Shown here: positions 1 through 8,449 of the stretch, piece by piece
Numbering within the stretch: the first letter of the stretch is position 1
Layout: every line of letters starts with the position of its first letter
Source of the DNA: Xanthobacteraceae bacterium
GTDB taxonomy: Bacteria; Pseudomonadota; Alphaproteobacteria; Rhizobiales; Xanthobacteraceae
DNA: 64,000 bases
NCBI GenBank assembly: GCA_031291475.1
Contig: JARLIY010000103.1
Coordinates: 62,001-126,000, forward strand
Direction: 5' to 3'
Notes under the pieces: generated by a model
Told to the model about the DNA's origin: nothing
What the model saw: only the letters and a program-made list of their open reading frames with translations
The model's database searches: none
Translations under genes and position numbers: made by a program

Positions 1-642
1 GTCGAGCAAAAAGCTCAAAACGTTGGTTTCGCCGGTCTTGATTACGCCGAGGAGCTTGTTGGCGGGATAAGCCTGGTTGCCGACGAACTCGATCTGCCTG
101 ACGGCAAGCTTGTCGCCTTCCTTGATCTCGAAGACGAGCGTGAGGCGCTCGTTCCTGGTGCTGATGATTTTCGGGTCGATCTTGACCGCGAAGTAGCCGC
201 GCTGGCGGTAAAGCTCGATGATGTGGGCGACGTCGTCGTGCACGAGGGCGCGCGACAGCGGCCCACCCGGCTTCGATTGCAGCGCGTTCCTGAGGTCGTC
301 GTCCTTGAGCTTCTTGTCGCCGTCGAACGCAATTCGCTCGATAGTGGGATTTTCCACGACCGTGACCAGAACGCGGCCGCCGTCCTGCGAAATTCTCGCG
401 TCCTGGAAAAGGCCGGTGGCGTAGAGACTCTTGAGCGCGGCGTCGAGCGCCGCTGCAGTGAACTTGCCGTCGCGCCCGGGGTGAAAATGCGAGCGGATCA
501 TCGCCGCATCGACGTGCCGGTTGCCGGCAACCACGATCGACGAATCCGTCGCCGTTGCCGCTTCGGCATTGCGGTTGGCTGCCAGTGCAAAAAATACCAA
601 AAGAAAAATGGAAGCGAAAACGGTTATCGCCCGGCCATGCAT
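1..642 (-). CDS. bamA: BamA-family outer-membrane assembly factor, 5' end only (214 codons)
   Basis: The reading frame is open from an ATG at 642 down to base 1, so the C-terminal part lies outside the window. The visible 214 residues show a signal peptide (hydrophobic core about residues 7-22, Ala-rich end near 28), then POTRA repeats: the first about 36-99 with the typical YATGLFQD segment at 74-81, the second about 100-177, and the start of a third at about 181 (VRQIEFVGN). In the family these periplasmic repeats precede a 16-strand barrel that inserts beta-barrel proteins into the outer membrane. The canonical alphaproteobacterial bamA usually follows rseP. Here the upstream neighbour is a universal stress protein gene that reads in the same direction, so this could be a second, paralogous BamA. 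The family assignment is firm; which paralogue it is, is open. Confidence 0.85.
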   Translation of the reverse strand, partial: MHGRAITVFASIFLLVFFALAANRNAEAATATDSSIVVAGNRHVDAAMIRSHFHPGRDGKFTAAALDAALKSLYATGLFQDARISQDGGRVLVTVVENPTIERIAFDGDKKLKDDDLRNALQSKPGGPLSRALVHDDVAHIIELYRQRGYFAVKIDPKIISTRNERLTLVFEIKEGDKLAVRQIEFVGNQAYPANKLLGVIKTGETNVLSFLLD

Positions 643-702
643 CAACGCGGCCTCCACCACCCGGGCGGACTAGATTCTATCGCGGGGGCGGAAGCGTGTC
701 GG

Positions 703-747
703 ATTGTGTCGAAATATGGGGAATAGTTGAGGCGCGCCCGACACAAT
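703..747. repeat. 9-bp inverted repeat upstream of the BamA-family gene
   Basis: ATTGTGTCG (703-711) and CGACACAAT (739-747) are perfect inverted arms separated by 27 bases, in the 141-bp gap between the stress protein gene and the BamA-family start. There is no T-tract. It could be a weak structure at the end of the upstream transcript or a paired operator; nothing more can be said from sequence. Confidence 0.4.
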
Positions 748-783
748 GGTTTACGGGCGGCCGGGCGCGGCGGACGGACTTCG

Positions 784-1203
784 CTATTTGACGACCAGAA
801 CCGGGCAGGGCGCAAGGTTAACGAGCCGCTCTGCCCGGCTGCCGAGCATGCGTTCGTAAAACCGCGAATGACCGTTCGAGCCGATAACCAGCAGATCGGA
901 CTTCAGCTCGGTGGCGAGCAGCACAATGTCCCGCACCGCGTGCCCGGTGAGCACGTGCGTGCGAATGTCGATTTGCTGCGCCCTGGCCGCTTGCCGTGCG
1001 TCCTGCAAGACCTTGTGGAAACGCCGCGCCGCGGTTCCGACTTCCTCTCTTACTTCTTCGATGAATTCCGGCATGTAGTCGATTTCCTCGACCGAGACCA
1101 TGTGCAGCTCGGAGCCGTTCGCCTTGGCGATCGCGATCGCCAATTCCAGCGCGTGCGCCGCGCGCTCCGATCCGTCGTTGGCGCAGAGAATTTTCTCAAA
1201 CAT
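784..1203 (-). CDS. Universal stress protein (UspA family)
   Basis: 139 residues, the usual length of a single-domain UspA protein. It starts MFEKILCANDGSE, giving the family's first strand and conserved Asp, and carries the nucleotide-binding signature GSNGHSRFYERMLGS near 108-122, followed by the C-terminal PCPVLVV strand. Proteins with this G-x2-G-x9-G(S/T) motif typically bind ATP and act in the cytoplasm in stress survival; the precise role is usually unknown. GGAGG lies seven bases before the ATG. The gene starts 15 bases after the stop of the antiporter gene on the same strand, so the two should be one transcript under the fluoride riboswitch at 2575-2621. UspA genes are among the genes reported downstream of fluoride riboswitches, which supports a role in fluoride stress. 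Confidence 0.92.
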   Translation of the reverse strand: MFEKILCANDGSERAAHALELAIAIAKANGSELHMVSVEEIDYMPEFIEEVREEVGTAARRFHKVLQDARQAARAQQIDIRTHVLTGHAVRDIVLLATELKSDLLVIGSNGHSRFYERMLGSRAERLVNLAPCPVLVVK

Positions 1204-1218
1204 TGGATCCTCCCGAAC

Positions 1219-2448
1219 TCAATCGGCTTTGCGCGTCGCCTCCCGCAGCGGCGCAGCGATGGCCGGCTCTTTGGTCTCTTTCTTTTCCTGTTCCGGGTTG
1301 TCCGGGAGCAGGTGGCGCGGCAGATAAAACGCGTTCGCGATCAATGTCGGGATCACCGCGCTGCCGACTACGCCGGCGACCAGGATGGAATATTGGGACT
1401 CGTTAATGATGCCATGCGAAAGCCCGAACAGCGACGAAATGGTGCCGAAGGTCAGCCCGGTGGACATCAGGAGCGTCGTATACATCGCCTCCGGATTGGG
1501 CGTTTTGAAGACCCGCGTCACCGGATAGACGCCGATAAACTTGCTGACCATTTTGGCAACCAGCATGAAGCCGAAAGCGAACGGGGCCGCGATCAGCGCC
1601 GGGATCGAGACGAACGCGCCGGCGCGGATGAAATAAAACGGCGTGAGCAAGCCGAAGGTGAACGCCCGCAACCGTCGCACCAGCGCGTGATCCCGCCCGA
1701 CCGTGCCGGCAAGCATCATGCCGATGATGTAAGCGGGCAGCACCGGCTCGCTGTCGGCCCAGCCGGCCAAAGCCCCGAGCCCCATCAGGCAAAACAGCAG
1801 AAACTTGATCTCCATTTCCGAGGGCCGGCCGCCGAACAGGCTGAAGAACCATGGCGTTATCCGCGGCAGCGCCGCGAACACGACGACAGCAACGACGGCG
1901 AAGATGATCGTATGCAGCGTGAACGGCGCGAAGATGAAGCCGAGCGCCAGCACGGTGCCGAGATCGTTGATAAAGCAGGCGGCAAGCACGGTCTTGCCGT
2001 ATTCGGTGCGGTTCAAGCCGTATTCGATCATCACCGCGTAAACCACGGCCACCGATGTGGTGGAGAGTGCGACGCCGGCGAGCCAGCTCGGCATGATCTC
2101 CCAGCCGAGGACGTAATGGGCCGCCGCCGCGCAGCCGAGAAACGGAAAGACGAAGCCGACGATCCCGAGCGCGGTCGCCTCCTTCCATTTCTTTTTGAAA
2201 ACCAGCGGATCGAGCTCCGCGCCGGCAAGAAACGTCAACATGATGGCGCCGATACCGGCGAGAAATTTGACCCACGGCTCGTTGATGCCGAGGGCGGTGG
2301 CGCCGACGGCGCTGCCGATGATCAATTGCGCCACTGTTCCGACGATAATTTCGGTCAGCGCGGTCGAGACACGCAGCCACACCGAAAGCAGGCCCGCAAT
2401 CAGTGCAAGGCCCACCCATAACGTTACCAGTGTCCAAACCGCCGTCAT
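1219..2448 (-). CDS. Cation/proton antiporter (Na_H_Exchanger fold), fluoride-riboswitch controlled
   Basis: 409 residues with about twelve hydrophobic segments. The family marks are LTFLAGAELD near residue 90, and an Asn-Asp pair (FINDLGT) near 160 in the position of the ion-binding acidic pair; Asn-Asp versus Asp-Asp often separates electroneutral from electrogenic exchangers. The C-terminal tail (about 375-409) is charged and cytoplasmic. The start is supported by AGGAGG six bases upstream. The leader carries a fluoride aptamer and terminator, and a UspA gene follows after 15 bases. Sodium/proton antiporters are known members of the fluoride regulon, where they may offset acid and ion stress as HF enters and dissociates. 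Transport of fluoride itself is not implied; the exported cation cannot be told from sequence. Confidence 0.88.
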   Translation of the reverse strand: MTAVWTLVTLWVGLALIAGLLSVWLRVSTALTEIIVGTVAQLIIGSAVGATALGINEPWVKFLAGIGAIMLTFLAGAELDPLVFKKKWKEATALGIVGFVFPFLGCAAAAHYVLGWEIMPSWLAGVALSTTSVAVVYAVMIEYGLNRTEYGKTVLAACFINDLGTVLALGFIFAPFTLHTIIFAVVAVVVFAALPRITPWFFSLFGGRPSEMEIKFLLFCLMGLGALAGWADSEPVLPAYIIGMMLAGTVGRDHALVRRLRAFTFGLLTPFYFIRAGAFVSIPALIAAPFAFGFMLVAKMVSKFIGVYPVTRVFKTPNPEAMYTTLLMSTGLTFGTISSLFGLSHGIINESQYSILVAGVVGSAVIPTLIANAFYLPRHLLPDNPEQEKKETKEPAIAAPLREATRKAD

Positions 2449-2545
2449 CGCCGCCTCCTGCGCAATGTTAGTCCGCCCGAATCAGCGCATCGATGTGCGG
2501 CGTTCGCACGGTCACACCAAACAGCCCTGGAGGCAGCGGGAGCGC

Positions 2546-2583
2546 AAAAAAACTCCTACCGACGCCAAGCGCCCGGCAGGAGT
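2546..2583 (-). terminator. Intrinsic terminator forming the riboswitch expression platform
   Basis: On the minus strand ACTCCTGCCG (beginning at 2583) pairs fully with CGGTAGGAGT (ending at 2552, one G-T pair), and the stem runs straight into seven T residues (2552-2546). The first bases of the 5' arm (ACTCC, 2583-2579) are the same bases that form the 3' strand of the aptamer pseudoknot. Aptamer folding and terminator folding therefore exclude each other, the arrangement expected for a ligand-activated (ON) switch. Confidence 0.88.
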
Positions 2584-2621
2584 CATCAGCCTTACGGCGG
2601 TTACGGGGGGACTCCATCCCC
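2575..2621 (-). ncRNA. Fluoride riboswitch (crcB motif) aptamer
   Basis: Read 5'-3' on the minus strand: GGGGATGGAGTCCCCCC (2621-2605), GTAACC, GCC-GTAA-GGC (2598-2590 region), then TGATGACTCC (2588-2579). This fits the crcB-motif consensus: helix P1 GGGG/CCCC; the invariant GATG of loop 1; helix P2 GCC/GGC closed by GTAA; the conserved CTGATG after P2; and a pseudoknot in which GGAGT of loop 1 (2615-2611) pairs perfectly with ACTCC (2583-2579). The spacing is as in characterised fluoride aptamers. It lies about 130 bases before the antiporter start and is followed by an overlapping terminator. The call was made by recognising the consensus and checking each pairing; no covariance search was run. 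Confidence 0.9.
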
Positions 2622-2898
2622 AGATAAGAATTTTCATTCTAACTCCGAATTCAACGATGACAACATGGCGGCCTTGATTGGATCATACGGTGCATGCGCC
2701 GCTCAGGACGATCGTCGTCGCGAGCCGAGCCCTGAGCTTTAGGAGCCTGACGAACTGCCCCAGAGTCATTGGGCGGCTGCCTATTTTTTAATCAATGGCC
2801 GAAGATGGCGCTCCAACGCGTCTTGATCCGAAGCGTTTCCTTCGAAATTAAAACGCCATTTCAAATCGTTACGGCGTGTCGGCAGGACGCCACCATGC

Positions 2899-2913
2899 TG
2901 GCATGGCCCTTGC
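2899..2913 (+). promoter_or_regulatory. Sigma-54 (RpoN) promoter for the BMP/biuret hydrolase operon
   Basis: CTGGCATGGCCCTTGCGA contains the -24 element TGGCATG and -12 element TTGC, with exactly ten bases between the GG (2900-2901) and GC (2912-2913) dinucleotides. It matches the YTGGCACG-N4-TTGCW consensus except for T in place of one C. Predicted transcription start is near 2925, giving a leader of about 84 bases before the ATG at 3009. An RpoN promoter needs an enhancer-binding activator; I find no clear TGCACC-N5-GGTGCA site for NtrC in the 250 bases upstream. Confidence 0.75.
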
Positions 2914-3008
2914 GAACAGCTCAGCCGCCAATCGAAGAACGCCCATCGTCCTGATGGCCTGCCACCAGCGGCGCCGCGTGCGCTTGCGTGCATAACAGGG
3001 AGCACCTC

Positions 3009-4118
3009 ATGAACTTCGACAACATTTCACGACGCCGCCTTCTGCAAGGGACGGCGGCGTTAAGCCTTGGCGCGGCGTTGCCGTTCAACCAGGCTTTGGC
3101 CAAAGACACGACCATCGGCTTTATCTATGTCGGCTCGCGCGACGACTATGGCTACAACCAGGCCCATGCCGCCGGCGCCGCCGCGCTCAAGAAGATGCCC
3201 GGCATCAAGGTCGTTGAGGAAGAGAAAGTTCCGGAGACCGACGCCGTCGAAAAGACCATGGAGTCAATGATCAGTCTCGACGGCGCGACGCTTCTGTTCC
3301 CCACATCCTTCGGCTACTACAACCCGCACATGATCAAGATGGCGATGAAGTATCCGAAGCTCCGCTTCGAACATTGCGGCGGCCTATGGACGGACAAGGA
3401 TCCGAAGAATGCCGGAAGCTATTTCGGCTACATCGACGAATCCCAGCACGTCGCCGGAATCGTTGCCGGCTATATGTCGAAATCCGGCAAGCTCGGCTTC
3501 GTCGCCGCCAAGCCGATCCCGCAGGTTCTGCGTAACATCAACGCCTGGACGCTCGGCGCCAAGCTCGCCAATCCGAAAATCACCACGCAGGTGATCTTCA
3601 CCGGCGACTGGTCGATGCCGGTGAAGGAAGCCGAAGCCACCAACAGCCTGATCGACCAGGGCGTCGACGTCATTACCTGTCACGTCGACGGCCCGAAGAC
3701 CGTGGTCGAAAACGCTGCGCGTCGCGGCGCCATGGTCACCGGCTATCACGTCAACCAGTCAGTACTCGCGCCGAAGGCCTATCTCACCGGCGCGGAGTGG
3801 AACTGGGAAGTGCTCTATCCGCGTTTCGCCAAGATGTTCACCTCCGGCGAGACGATTCCGAACTTCTACCGCGGCGGCCTGAAGGAAGAGATCGTCAAGG
3901 TGTCGCCGTATGGTCCGATGGTCAGCGCCGAGGCCAAGGCGAAAGCCGATGAGGTCAAGGCCGGGCTCACCGCAGGGACTTACGTCATCTTCAAAGGTCC
4001 GATCGCCGACAATAAGGGCAAGACGGTCATTGCCGCGGGCGTCTCCCAGGGCCAGACCGATCCCGAGCTGGAAAAGATGGGCTATCTAGTCGAGGGCGTC
4101 GTCGGAGCGACTTCGTGA
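3009..4118 (+). CDS. BMP-family ABC transporter substrate-binding protein
   Basis: 369 residues. The ATG at 3009 is chosen over the one at 2988 because AGGGAG lies just before it and because the N-terminus then reads as a twin-arginine signal (SRRRLLQG near residue 7-14, hydrophobic core, Ala-x-Ala near 32). The mature part opens IGFIYVGSRDDYGYN, characteristic of the Bmp/Med-like periplasmic binding fold that binds nucleosides, purines and related rings. Length and layout resemble AtzT, the binding protein of the s-triazine/purine transporter of cyanuric-acid degraders. First gene of a tightly overlapped operon (stop overlaps the next GTG) behind a sigma-54 promoter. Substrate is inferred to be a nitrogen-rich compound such as a purine, s-triazine, biuret or ureide; the sequence alone does not settle it. 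Confidence 0.9.
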   Translation: MNFDNISRRRLLQGTAALSLGAALPFNQALAKDTTIGFIYVGSRDDYGYNQAHAAGAAALKKMPGIKVVEEEKVPETDAVEKTMESMISLDGATLLFPTSFGYYNPHMIKMAMKYPKLRFEHCGGLWTDKDPKNAGSYFGYIDESQHVAGIVAGYMSKSGKLGFVAAKPIPQVLRNINAWTLGAKLANPKITTQVIFTGDWSMPVKEAEATNSLIDQGVDVITCHVDGPKTVVENAARRGAMVTGYHVNQSVLAPKAYLTGAEWNWEVLYPRFAKMFTSGETIPNFYRGGLKEEIVKVSPYGPMVSAEAKAKADEVKAGLTAGTYVIFKGPIADNKGKTVIAAGVSQGQTDPELEKMGYLVEGVVGATS

Positions 4119-5242
4119 AAGCCGATGTCGGTGCGCCTATCGGCGCGCCTCTTGCAAAATCCGGGGTAGGCGCGCTTTTGCGCCTGCCCCCTTTCGGCCA
4201 AAAGATCGGCGGCACAGCGGAATATATCGTCATTCCGGTGCTCGCCTTGGCGGGTTCGCTCGTCCTGTTCGGCATCTTCGTCGCGCTGTTCGGGAAGAAC
4301 CCGCTCGACCTTTACTTCTACATGTATCAGGGCGCGTTCGGCACCTGGTTCTCGTGGCAGAACACGCTGACGCGCGCCGCGCCGCTCATCCTGACCGCGC
4401 TGTGTACGGCACTGCCGGCGCAGCTCGGCATGGTGATCATCGGCGGCGAGGGGGCGCTGCTCATCGGGGCACTGGCGGCGACCAGCGCGGCATTGGCACT
4501 GCAATCGGCGCCGCCGCTTGTCGTCGATATCGCGATGGCCTGCGCCGGCATGATCGGCGGCGGCTTGTGGATCATGCTGGCCGGCGCGTTGCGCCAATAT
4601 CGCGGCGTCAATGAAACGATTTCGAGCCTGTTGCTGGTCTATATCGCGCTGGCAATTCTCAACTTTCTCGTCGAAGGCCCGATGCGCGATCCGACCAGCC
4701 TCAACAAGCCCTCCACGCGCGAAATCGGCGCCGCCAACATGATCGGAAGCATTCCCGGCATGGACGTGCATTGGGGCTTCGTGTTCGGCATCATTGCCGC
4801 ATCGCTCTCCTACGTCCTGATCTATCACACCGTGTTCGGCTTCGCCGCGCGCGTCGCCGGCGGCAACATACGCGCCGCCAAGGTGGTGGGATTGAGCGTC
4901 GGCAAGCTTATTCTCGTCATCTGCTTTCTCGCCGGCGCCGCCGCCGGACTCGCCGGCATGATGGAGGTTGCGGCGGTGCAGGGGCGCACCAACGCCAATT
5001 TGGCCGCGGGTTACGGCTTTGCCGGCATCCTGGTCGCCTTCCTGGCGCGGCAAAATCCCTTGGCCATCATCCCGGTCGCGGTCCTGCTCGGCGGCATCGG
5101 CGCCAGCGGCGGTTTGTTGCAGCGGCGGCTCGGACTGCCGGATGCGTCGGTGCTGGTGCTCCAAGGCATGATCTTCGTCATGGTGCTGGCGAGCGACACG
5201 CTTTACGGCCGTTTCAGCTTCTTCAAGGGAAAGGCGTCTTAA
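4115..5242 (+). CDS. ABC transporter permease (BMP-type importer, first permease)
   Basis: 375 residues, GTG start overlapping the binding protein stop (GTGA), implying translational coupling. After a Gly/Pro-rich cytoplasmic N-terminus there are about nine to ten membrane segments of the BPD_transp_2 type, with GGEGALLIGALAATSAAL near 110 and the coupling-helix region GGNIRAAKVVGLSVGK near 250. This family pairs two non-identical permeases with one double ATPase for import of nucleosides, purines or simple sugars. The next permease starts two bases downstream of the stop, confirming a heterodimeric channel. Confidence 0.92.
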   Translation: MKADVGAPIGAPLAKSGVGALLRLPPFGQKIGGTAEYIVIPVLALAGSLVLFGIFVALFGKNPLDLYFYMYQGAFGTWFSWQNTLTRAAPLILTALCTALPAQLGMVIIGGEGALLIGALAATSAALALQSAPPLVVDIAMACAGMIGGGLWIMLAGALRQYRGVNETISSLLLVYIALAILNFLVEGPMRDPTSLNKPSTREIGAANMIGSIPGMDVHWGFVFGIIAASLSYVLIYHTVFGFAARVAGGNIRAAKVVGLSVGKLILVICFLAGAAAGLAGMMEVAAVQGRTNANLAAGYGFAGILVAFLARQNPLAIIPVAVLLGGIGASGGLLQRRLGLPDASVLVLQGMIFVMVLASDTLYGRFSFFKGKAS

Positions 5243-5243
5243 G

Positions 5244-6173
5244 GTGGCGGGCGCGGGCGACATTGGCTTGTGGACGGTGCCGGTTGCGGTGCTCGGCGGC
5301 GCCGTGCGCGTCTCCACGCCGTTTATCTTCGTCAGTCTCGGCGAGTGCATCACCGAGCGCAGCGGCCGCATCAATCTCGGCCTCGAAGGCACCCTGGTTA
5401 TGGGCGCGATGGCCGGCTACGGCGTCTCCTACCTCACCGGCTCTCCCTGGCTCGGCGTCCTTGCCGCCGGCGTCGCCGGTGCGGGGATGGGGGCGCTGCA
5501 CGCCGGGATCTGCGGGCTGCCGCGCGTCAACGACATCGCCGTCGGCATCGCGCTGATGCTGTTCGGCGTCGGGCTCGCCTTCTATCTCGGCAAACCGCTG
5601 ATCGAGCCGACCGCGCCGCGCCTGCCGTCGATCGACCTCGGCTGGTGGACCGACATCCCGCAATTGCGCGCCGCCTTGCGGATCAATGCGCTGTTTCTTA
5701 TCGGCGTGGCGCTCGCGCCCGTCCTGGTCTGGGCGCTGCGGACCACGCGATGGGGCCTGATCATACGCACCGCCGGCGAGAGCGCCGACGCCGCTTTGGC
5801 GATGGGCTATTCGGTCAATTTCATCCGCCTGCGCGCGACCATGTTCGGCGGGTTCCTCGCCGGAATCGGCGGCTCGTTCCTGTCGCTCTATTATCCCGGC
5901 AGCTGGAACGAGGGGCTGTCTAGCGGCCAGGGCATCACCGCCGTGGCGCTGGTGATCTTCGCGCGCTGGAATCCGTTATTGTGCCTCGGCGCGTCGGTCC
6001 TGTTCGGCGGCGCCGCCGCTCTGGGGCCGGCGTTGCAATCCGTCGGCTACAGCCAGGGCTATCATCTGTTCAACGCCGCCCCTTACATCCTGACGTTGTT
6101 GATCATGATCGCAACCTGCTCGCCGAAGCGCACCCTGATCGGTGCGCCGGCCGAGCTGTCGATTACGAGGTGA
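5244..6173 (+). CDS. ABC transporter permease (BMP-type importer, second permease)
   Basis: 309 residues from a GTG start. It has the short N-terminus and the conserved RVSTPFIFVSLGECITERSG segment and GRINLGLEGTLVMGA block of the second BPD_transp_2 permease, eight or so membrane segments, and a coupling helix near TAGESADAALAMGYSVNFIRLR (split around residue 180-200). It works with the preceding permease in the inner membrane. The following hydrolase gene starts three bases after its stop. Confidence 0.92.
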   Translation: MAGAGDIGLWTVPVAVLGGAVRVSTPFIFVSLGECITERSGRINLGLEGTLVMGAMAGYGVSYLTGSPWLGVLAAGVAGAGMGALHAGICGLPRVNDIAVGIALMLFGVGLAFYLGKPLIEPTAPRLPSIDLGWWTDIPQLRAALRINALFLIGVALAPVLVWALRTTRWGLIIRTAGESADAALAMGYSVNFIRLRATMFGGFLAGIGGSFLSLYYPGSWNEGLSSGQGITAVALVIFARWNPLLCLGASVLFGGAAALGPALQSVGYSQGYHLFNAAPYILTLLIMIATCSPKRTLIGAPAELSITR

Positions 6174-6176
6174 GCC

Positions 6177-6890
6177 ATGCCGCAACTCGCGCGCAAAGAA
6201 GGTACCGCAGCGGAGCGCTACGTCGCCGCCGATCCCTATCTGTGGCCCTATAACGGCGACCTTCGCCCGCAAAATACCGCGCTGATCATCATAGACATGC
6301 AAACCGATTTCTGCGGGGTCGGCGGCTATGTGGACAAGATGGGTTACGATCTGTCGCTGACCCGCGCGCCGATCGAGCCGATCAAGCGCACGCTCGCCGC
6401 CGCGCGCGCCAAAGGCTTCCACGTCATCCACACCCGCGAAGGCCATCGTCCCGATCTCGCCGACCTGCCGGCGAACAAGCGCTGGCGCTCGCGCCAGATC
6501 GGCGCCGGCATCGGCGATCCCGGACCCTGCGGTCGCATCCTGGTGCGCGGCGAGCCGGGCTGGGACATCATTCCCGAGCTGGCGCCGCGCGAGGGCGAGC
6601 CGATCATCGACAAGCCGGGCAAGGGCTCGTTCTGCGCCACCGATCTCGAGCTTTTGCTGCGGCTCGCTGGCATCGACAACATCGTGCTCACCGGCATCAC
6701 CACCGACGTCTGCGTGCACACCACGATGCGCGAGGCCAACGATCGCGGCTTTGAGTGCCTGCTGCTGGAAGACTGCTGCGGCGCCACCGACAAGAGCAAT
6801 CACGATCATGCGCTGAAGATGATCAAGATGCAGGGCGGCGTGTTCGGCGCGGTGTCGGACTCGGCGAAATTCATCGAGGTCATTTCGTGA
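6177..6890 (+). CDS. biuH: Biuret hydrolase-like cysteine amidohydrolase (isochorismatase fold)
   Basis: 237 residues of the isochorismatase-like family. The catalytic triad is clear: Asp40 in IIIDMQTDF, Lys146 in [10 protein letters not shown], and Cys179 in [18 protein letters not shown], preceded by the family's non-proline cis-peptide region. These sit exactly four residues later than Asp36, Lys142 and Cys175 as I recall them for the biuret hydrolase of Rhizobium leguminosarum, and the flanking blocks (DADPYPWPYNG-like N-terminus, [17 protein letters not shown]) are the same as in that enzyme as I remember it. The expected reaction is biuret to allophanate plus ammonia in the cytoplasm; triuret is an alternative substrate. 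It lies inside an ABC importer operon between permease and ATPase genes, so importer and enzyme should share a substrate pathway. No allophanate hydrolase gene is visible in this window. Confidence 0.85.
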
Positions 6891-8449
6891 GCGAATTCGC
6901 CACGCTGATCCCGCCCGGCGGGCTCGTCCCGCCGACCGCGTCCAAAGCCACGTTCGGCGTCGAAGCGCTGTCCATGACCAAGCGCTTCGGCGAGTTCACC
7001 GCGCTCGACCAGGTTTCGTTCAAAGTCAAACCCGGCACGTTTCACGCCCTGCTTGGCGAGAACGGTGCCGGCAAGTCGACGCTCGTCAAATGCATCATGG
7101 GCTATTACCAGTCCGACGCCGGCGAGCTTCTGGTCGACGACCGCCAGGAGGTCATCGACAATCCGCGCGCCGCGCACGCGCTCGGCCTCGGCATGGTCTA
7201 TCAGCATTTCACCTCCGTGCCGGCGATGACGGTGGCGGAGAATTTCGTCCTGGCGCGCGACCATGTGCCGGCGGTGGTGGATTGGACGCGCGAGCGCAAG
7301 GCGCTGGAGGAATTTTTGGCGCGCATGCCGTTTCGCGTGCCGATCAACGCCAAGGTTTCGGCAATTTCCGCCGGCGAGCGGCAGAAATGCGAAATCCTCA
7401 AGCAGCTTTATCTGAATCGCCGGTTCCTGATTCTCGATGAGCCGACCTCGGTGCTCACCCCCGGTGAAGCCGACGAGGTGCTCGGCATGCTGCGCAGCAT
7501 GGTGGCGGGCGGCACGCTGACCATCCTCATGATCACCCACAAATTCCGCGAGGTCATGGCCTTTGCCGACGAGGTGACGATCCTGCGTCGCGGCAAGCTG
7601 GCCGGCGTCGGGCTGGTCAAGGAATTGACCCCCGATGCCATGGCGCGCACCATGATCGGCGCCGAGGAGTTGACGGTGCAGCCGGGCCGCACCGGCGAAT
7701 ACGGCGCGCCGCGGATCGACATCGAAAAGCTCAATGCACTCGACGACGGCGGCCAGCCGGCGGTGCGCGACGTATCGCTATCGATCCGCGGCGGCGAGAT
7801 TGTCGGCGTCGCCGGCGTCTCCGGCAACGGCCAGCGGCAGCTCATCGAAGTGCTCGCCGGCCAGCGCGAAGCCGAGAGCGGCAGCATCTATCTGCAAGGC
7901 GAGCGTTATCACGCCACGCGCGAAGAGATGCGCCATAATCACCTGTCGGTCCTTCCGGAGGAACCGCTGAAGAACGCCTGCGTCGCGCGCATGAGCGTTG
8001 CCGACAATCTCGCCTTCCGCGAGTTCGACCGCGCGCCGTTCGCGTCCGGCGGCTGGTGGCTCAACCGGACAAAATTCCACGAAGAGGCGATGCGCAAGAT
8101 CGCCCTCTACAAGATCAAGACCCGTTCGGACGATACTCCGATCGGCGAACTGTCCGGCGGCAACGTGCAGCGCACGGTGCTGGCGCGCGAGCTCGCCGGC
8201 GAGGTCGATATTCTGGTTGCAGCCAATCCGTGTTTCGGTCTCGACTTCGCGGCGGTGGCGCAGATTCACGCCGAGATCATGGCGGCGCGCAACCGCGGCG
8301 CGGCCGTGCTGCTGGTCAGCGAGGATCTTGACGAATTGCTCGAGCTTGCCGACCGCATCGTGGTGATTTTCAACGGCTCGTTCGTCTACGAAGCCCGCGC
8401 CAGCGAAGCCAATCTCACTGAGATCGGCCGGCATATGGCCGGGCATTAG
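6887..8449 (+). CDS. ABC transporter double ATP-binding protein (BMP-type importer)
   Basis: 520 residues. The GTG at 6887 overlaps the hydrolase stop (GTGA) and is preferred over the ATG at 6755, which lies inside the hydrolase gene. Two ATPase modules: the first has Walker [10 protein letters not shown] near residue 59-67, LSGGQ-equivalent SAGERQK and Walker [13 protein letters not shown]; the second has a Walker-A-like loop without Lys ([10 protein letters not shown]), signature LSGGNVQ and a Walker B ending in AANP rather than a DEP motif. A weak second site is usual in this sugar/nucleoside subclass. It energises the two permeases encoded upstream. Confidence 0.93.

Follow-up and report, generated by a model that had tools for sequence, protein, structure and literature searches.

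The stretch of DNA analyzed here, a window of 64,000 nucleotides (nt) from a Xanthobacteraceae bacterium (contig JARLIY010000103.1; its draft genome is called G000 below), carries on the minus strand a fluoride riboswitch followed by the genes of a cation:proton antiporter (CPA) and a universal stress protein (UspA). Our analysis indicates that the RNA is very probably a fluoride-ON transcriptional riboswitch controlling a two-gene fluoride-tolerance operon made up of these genes. The observations that carry this reading are the family of the RNA, the overlap of its two folds, the gene order, the families of both proteins and the association of one antiporter clade with the riboswitch. Fluoride riboswitches flag genes that are important under fluoride, and a clade that is mostly riboswitch-controlled in many phyla and has a distinctive ion site is a testable candidate for how cells cope with protons and cations under fluoride stress. 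The clade would also explain genes, some of them on enterobacterial plasmids, that are annotated merely as cation:proton antiporter.

The riboswitch leader and the genes behind it

The Rfam Fluoride model (RF01734) matched positions 2630-2570 of the minus strand over its full length (model 1-64 of 64) with 57.8 bits against a gathering threshold of 34 (E 1.9e-13). This was the sole Rfam match at gathering threshold within the whole window, and the only fluoride riboswitch counted in G000. The covariance search bears out the original prediction, which had read a crcB-motif fold from the letters of this strand and placed it at 2546-2621; these positions span the structure, and the Rfam match starts 9 nt further 5'. 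GGAGT at 2615-2611 is complementary, as had been claimed, to ACTCC at 2583-2579, and by this complementarity the two are assigned as the strands of the pseudoknot. The element is predicted to bind fluoride and to change expression. The leader (2630-2540) folds only somewhat more stably than its dinucleotide shuffles, of which 7 in 200 did equally well (z -2.15). A promoter-like site (TTGTCA-16-TAGAAT, minus strand, 2663-2636), recognized by agreement with the consensus at 10 of 12 letters, stops five nt short of the Rfam match, so that the RNA is predicted to start at about the first base of that match; three promoter-like sites were found in 500-3100 where 0.7 were expected. Covariation in our own aptamer alignment (A2) was set aside as evidence because its RNAalifold structure differs from the Rfam structure, and the use of our own aptamer model (R1) was confined to a second search for the riboswitch.

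The same ACTCC strand opens the 5' arm of an intrinsic terminator (2583-2546). Its stem consists of 11 uninterrupted pairs between 2583-2573 and 2562-2552, including one G-U pair, and closes a loop of 10, with a hairpin energy of -21.5 kcal/mol, and the T run at 2552-2546 contains seven T, the first of which pairs with A2583 and leaves a tail of six. The terminator had been described beforehand as a 10-bp stem starting with ACTCC and followed by seven T: the start of the stem and the run of seven were right, but the stem is 11 pairs long and six T remain unpaired. In a test designed after the feature had been seen, the 100 nt downstream were subjected to 20,000 mononucleotide shuffles, and not one of these could form 10 pairs with the fixed 5' arm and also offer at least 6 T of 8. 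The hairpin at 2583-2552 was not listed by a consensus terminator scan, presumably because the loop limit of the scan is 8. Both folds thus use ACTCC 2583-2579, the overlap that the original prediction had proposed. Without fluoride the 11-bp hairpin would form and transcription would end behind the U tract. Binding of Mg-fluoride would let the GGAGT-ACTCC pseudoknot keep the ACTCC strand and block the start of the terminator, and the resulting read-through would allow the antiporter and UspA to be made, an ON switch by anti-termination. The sequence supports this mechanism, in which read-through with fluoride is the predicted part.

The antiporter gene (P0001, 409 aa, minus strand, 2448-1219) starts with an ATG 97 nt beyond the T run, with a ribosome-binding site AGGAGG (2459-2454) 5 nt before it. 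The UspA gene (P0002, 139 aa, 1203-784, same strand) begins 15 nt past the antiporter stop and has its own GGGAGG. Pfam assigns P0001 to PF00999 (130.8 bits, gathering 26.2), with no further domain, and P0002 to PF00582 (105.5 bits, gathering 24). Gene order and protein families agree with the proposal that both genes form one unit behind the riboswitch. Downstream, 123 nt after UspA and on the same strand, is the start of a POTRA-domain protein (660-1). By eye there is no obvious T-run terminator between the two, and the POTRA gene might share the transcript.

The best NCBIfam match of P0001 was the CPA2 model TIGR00932, at 120.4 bits against a curated cut-off of 238.3, and the protein is therefore CPA2-like by best match and no member by that model. 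By sequence, NapA and KefC are its closest relatives of solved structure. A predicted structure built with 39 sequences (predicted local distance difference test score, pLDDT, 86.7) found NapA (4bwz, E 5.3e-12) as best Foldseek match, and also NHA2 and KefC, with about 21-23 % identity to NapA and KefC in the fold match. P0001 shares with these the fold and the conserved Asp and Lys, but the second domain of KefC is absent. In an alignment to NapA numbered by hand, D156-D157 correspond to N161-D162 and K305 to K303. Over 80 usable relatives D162 and K303 were found in 80 of 80, and position 161, Asp in NapA, was Asn in 42 and Thr in 38; these counts omit L057 and L066, where the reading frame broke off, and L096, whose start lies off the contig, and include two equal-looking viral contigs. 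The acidic residue that precedes the conserved Asp in electrogenic CPA2 proteins of the NapA/NhaA type is thus missing from all 80. PMC6181914 ties CPA2 proteins lacking an acidic residue at this position to electroneutral transport, and by that model P0001 is predicted to carry out electroneutral cation/H+ exchange. The antiporter would exchange Na+ or K+ for H+ and so mend the pH and ion imbalance caused by entry of hydrogen fluoride (HF), in most cases alongside a fluoride exporter in the same cell, and UspA would serve as a stress accessory. The direction of transport, the ion and the role of UspA are in this scheme predictions.

An antiporter clade associated with the riboswitch

We have examined the best 80 of 581 relatives of P0001 in a named genome collection (61-78 % identity), and the rates given here therefore hold for near relatives. 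RF01734 was found upstream on the same strand in 65 of the 80, was absent in 12, and the remaining 3 (L078, L083, L096) were cut by contig ends; in 48 of the 65 it lay within 600 nt of the antiporter. One of the 12 negatives, L056, has a divergent riboswitch copy just upstream (30.4 bits with R1). Riboswitch-bearing hosts, according to record titles and tree labels, included Pseudomonadota, Acidobacteriota, Nitrospirota, Verrucomicrobiota, Actinomycetota and Planctomycetota, many of them metagenome bins, and the riboswitch was likewise present on two IMG/VR contigs, which are equal in length and match. Three loci of a small subgroup show weak, similarly placed riboswitch-like RNAs about 65 nt before the antiporter (L094 3300-3365, L108 3304-3366, L093 3302-3364). 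Two of the three are labelled Acidobacteriota, and this subgroup possibly has a diverged fluoride aptamer.

The same association appeared when genomes were sampled. The order sample held 50 riboswitch matches in 36 of 297 genomes, and a clade search at E 1e-60 found the antiporter in 5 of 295, all five just downstream of a riboswitch. The phylum sample had 3 carriers in 398 genomes, again all with the riboswitch, two of them being order-sample genomes. Combined, 6 of 6 clade-carrying genomes had the riboswitch, two of which were rechecked. Plasmid loci within the clade gave 4 of 4 fetched, from 131 matching records, and an in-clade copy from Rubrobacter with 50 % identity had both riboswitch and Usp. 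Antiporters outside the clade had the riboswitch in 0 of 7 plasmid loci (22-30 % identity) and in 0 of 3 paralogs from G000. G000 has four PF00999 proteins and the riboswitch stands at P0001 alone; the paralogs are about 23-25 % identical to it over longer matches and fall outside on very long branches in a quick tree. Among the 40 plasmid rows listed, identity drops from 60 % (with one at 50 %) to 34 % and below. By these identities the clade is well set off from other antiporters. It is a separate clade, mostly with a fluoride riboswitch upstream. Nothing was drawn from the tree about gain or loss of the riboswitch, since the change count sets the 12 negatives against the paralogs alone.

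The partner genes are also recurrent. Of the 77 loci whose sequence continues for more than 500 nt past the antiporter, 63 have a Usp gene that starts within 300 nt of its end. Long leaders, in which over 600 nt separate the riboswitch from the antiporter, were checked for their first open reading frame (ORF) at 13 of 17 loci (L068, L074, L079 and L102 were left out), and CrcB was found in between in 11 of these 13; the other two gave a HAD hydrolase (L034) and no match in the frame tried (L071). The second gene between riboswitch and antiporter was DUF190 in all five long-leader loci checked. Of the two shorter leaders tried, L040 had DUF190 and L061 gave no match. These interposed genes mark a fluoride operon. 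On a Methylocystis plasmid the row runs riboswitch, antiporter, Usp, CrcB and DUF190. Gene rows of this kind indicate that a channel-bearing fluoride operon is a common setting of the clade, of which the window has the short version. On a Klebsiella plasmid (L123, 5816-10963) the row of riboswitch, antiporter and Usp continues with two genes that are annotated as MutS, and antiporters of near-identical score occur on plasmids of several enterobacterial genera.

Fluoride exporters and alternative readings

It had been noted beforehand that no fluoride channel was in view. None is present nearby, and CrcB (PF02537) was not found in the whole G000 draft. The best-matching chain for the single CLC of G000 was a CLC (60.8 bits); a ClcA-type chain reached 58.7 and CLC-F 40.2 bits, and its best NCBIfam match was a ClcB-like model, under cut-off. 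For comparison, genome G117 has a riboswitch-driven CLC that scored 194.5 bits to CLC-F and 24.3 to a ClcA-type chain. The G000 protein thus appears by its scores closer to chloride CLCs, and does not qualify as a CLC-F. An assembly gap could explain the missing CrcB or CLC-F, G000 being a 4.0 Mb draft in 172 contigs with completeness 95.6 % and contamination 5.1 %. We consider this unlikely, as three further carriers given as 99-100 % complete (G140, G161, G238) also lack CrcB. CrcB was found in 278 of the 295 order-sample genomes and was missing from 4 of 5 carriers of the clade against 13 of 290 non-carriers (Fisher p 3.7e-5, a post hoc contrast over few genomes, uncorrected for kinship); the fifth carrier, G212, has CrcB. 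The CLCs of G161, G238 and G000 are chloride-like and G140 had no CLC match, so that in some genomes, above all G140 (given as 99 % complete), the riboswitch-driven antiporter and UspA are the sole fluoride defence that we recognized. The CrcB contrast and these CLC results favor the proposal that antiporters of the clade export fluoride themselves or fully replace an exporter, as a third route next to CrcB and CLC-F, and the riboswitch-driven CLC-F of G117, also without CrcB, goes in the same direction. However, a second sample (50 loci of the 80 plus G442; L036 was dropped as coming from the same genome as L032) gave CrcB in 44 of 51 carriers. The seven carriers without it, whose CLCs were left unclassed, comprised five with no CLC match, one with one and one with four (two of them short pieces). 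Together with the CrcB genes interposed in long leaders, and with the invariant Asp and Lys, which are cation-site residues of CPA proteins, this makes an exporter role very unlikely. The sum is mixed: the antiporter can occur without a recognized exporter but usually does not. The broader idea, that the clade is a dedicated fluoride-tolerance transporter able to stand in for CrcB and CLC-F, is rather doubtful; if it were true, resistance would depend either on the exchange of cations for protons or on fluoride efflux through this protein.

Several counts weigh against the reading as a fluoride-ON operon. Clade antiporters stand behind just 5 of the 50 order-sample riboswitch matches. Eleven of the 12 negatives gave no significant match in the R1 search, four of them with weak but well-placed hits (E 0.065-0.55). 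The form of the terminator also varies: among 67 riboswitch loci, a stem followed by 5 or more T in 8 was seen in 13, a weak tail in 12, a stem lacking T in 19 and none by our rule in 23. A TTGAC box was present just upstream in 26. The strong U tract is thus a minority form, and this survey found no conservation of the terminator form across relatives. The many relatives without a strong U tract could suit a decayed or translational switch with no transcription terminator. For the window this is highly improbable, since transcriptional control is what the stem, the U tract and the separate AGGAGG some 90 nt downstream suggest. The direction of transport can be weighed in a similar way. Kef acts by cytoplasmic acidification, and a Kef-like antiporter moving K+ or Na+ out and H+ in would lower the cytoplasmic pH and leave less HF trapped as fluoride. 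The kinship of P0001 to KefC by sequence and fold agrees with this, as do NCBIfam matches to KefC and KefB, far under cut-off. Thr occupies CPA-motif position 1 in 77 of 80 relatives (the motif was placed by the NapA alignment), and PMC6181914 ties a residue of that kind to K+ selectivity. On the other side, NapA, a Na+ antiporter, is the nearer solved relative, P0001 lacks a regulatory domain of the KefC type, Pfam finding PF00999 alone, and in PMC11139923 the antiporters are taken to help keep the pH stable when the cell acidifies. We therefore hold a Kef-like direction as possible, although not likely.

Known systems and other fluoride-riboswitch loci

There is prior evidence for the parts of this arrangement. 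PMC2864571 describes crcB RNAs that precede ion-transport genes as well as mutS and whose motif is overlapped by terminators, and PMC11077080 describes the pseudoknot and intrinsic terminator of a fluoride riboswitch. The leader in the window follows the same logic, with a full model match and a pseudoknot strand inside the terminator, and shows no essential difference; its target is an antiporter gene. Antiporters had been considered rarer members of the riboswitch regulon, a view that does not hold against PMC11139923, which, citing Baker 2012, gives Na+/H+ antiporters as the next-commonest fluoride-riboswitch class after exporters, and which also states that fluoride acidifies the cell. As described secondhand there, the antiporters of Baker 2012 have the riboswitch before the gene, as here; what sets the present case apart from that description is that the association is tied to one clade with an N/T-D...K site. 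The fluoride operon of Enterobacter cloacae FRM likewise has uspA under riboswitch control, up about 120-fold, but the excerpts of PMC5533749 name no cation antiporter. From PMC2864571, PMC11139923 and PMC5533749, riboswitch with antiporter and riboswitch with UspA are therefore known in kind. The excerpts of PMC7266159, PMC9495176 and PMC8814607 treat exporters and contain nothing on the P0001 clade. In an open-access library, judged mostly from listings, no paper singled out the clade, the N/T-D site or the exporter-free carriers, which weakly suggests that these are new.

Riboswitches of the order sample also precede CrcB and CLC-F, and the following gene received a Pfam name in part of the 30 loci fetched from it. 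Other targets were MFS transporters (L007, 1-1506, and L026, 194-1402, both on the minus strand) and a protein at L009 (1546-2391) that matches OFeT_1 above cut-off and GDT1 just below. In the same sample, genome G150 has eight fluoride riboswitch matches on contigs C22 and C87, seven of them within 20 kb of C22, perhaps a fluoride-resistance island. On the plus strand of the window, the region 3009-8449 codes for a PnrA-like binding protein, a BPD_transp_2 permease and an isochorismatase-type hydrolase. Two more ORFs there, assigned from their translations alone, resemble a second permease and an ABC ATPase, and the set looks like a nucleoside-type ABC importer.
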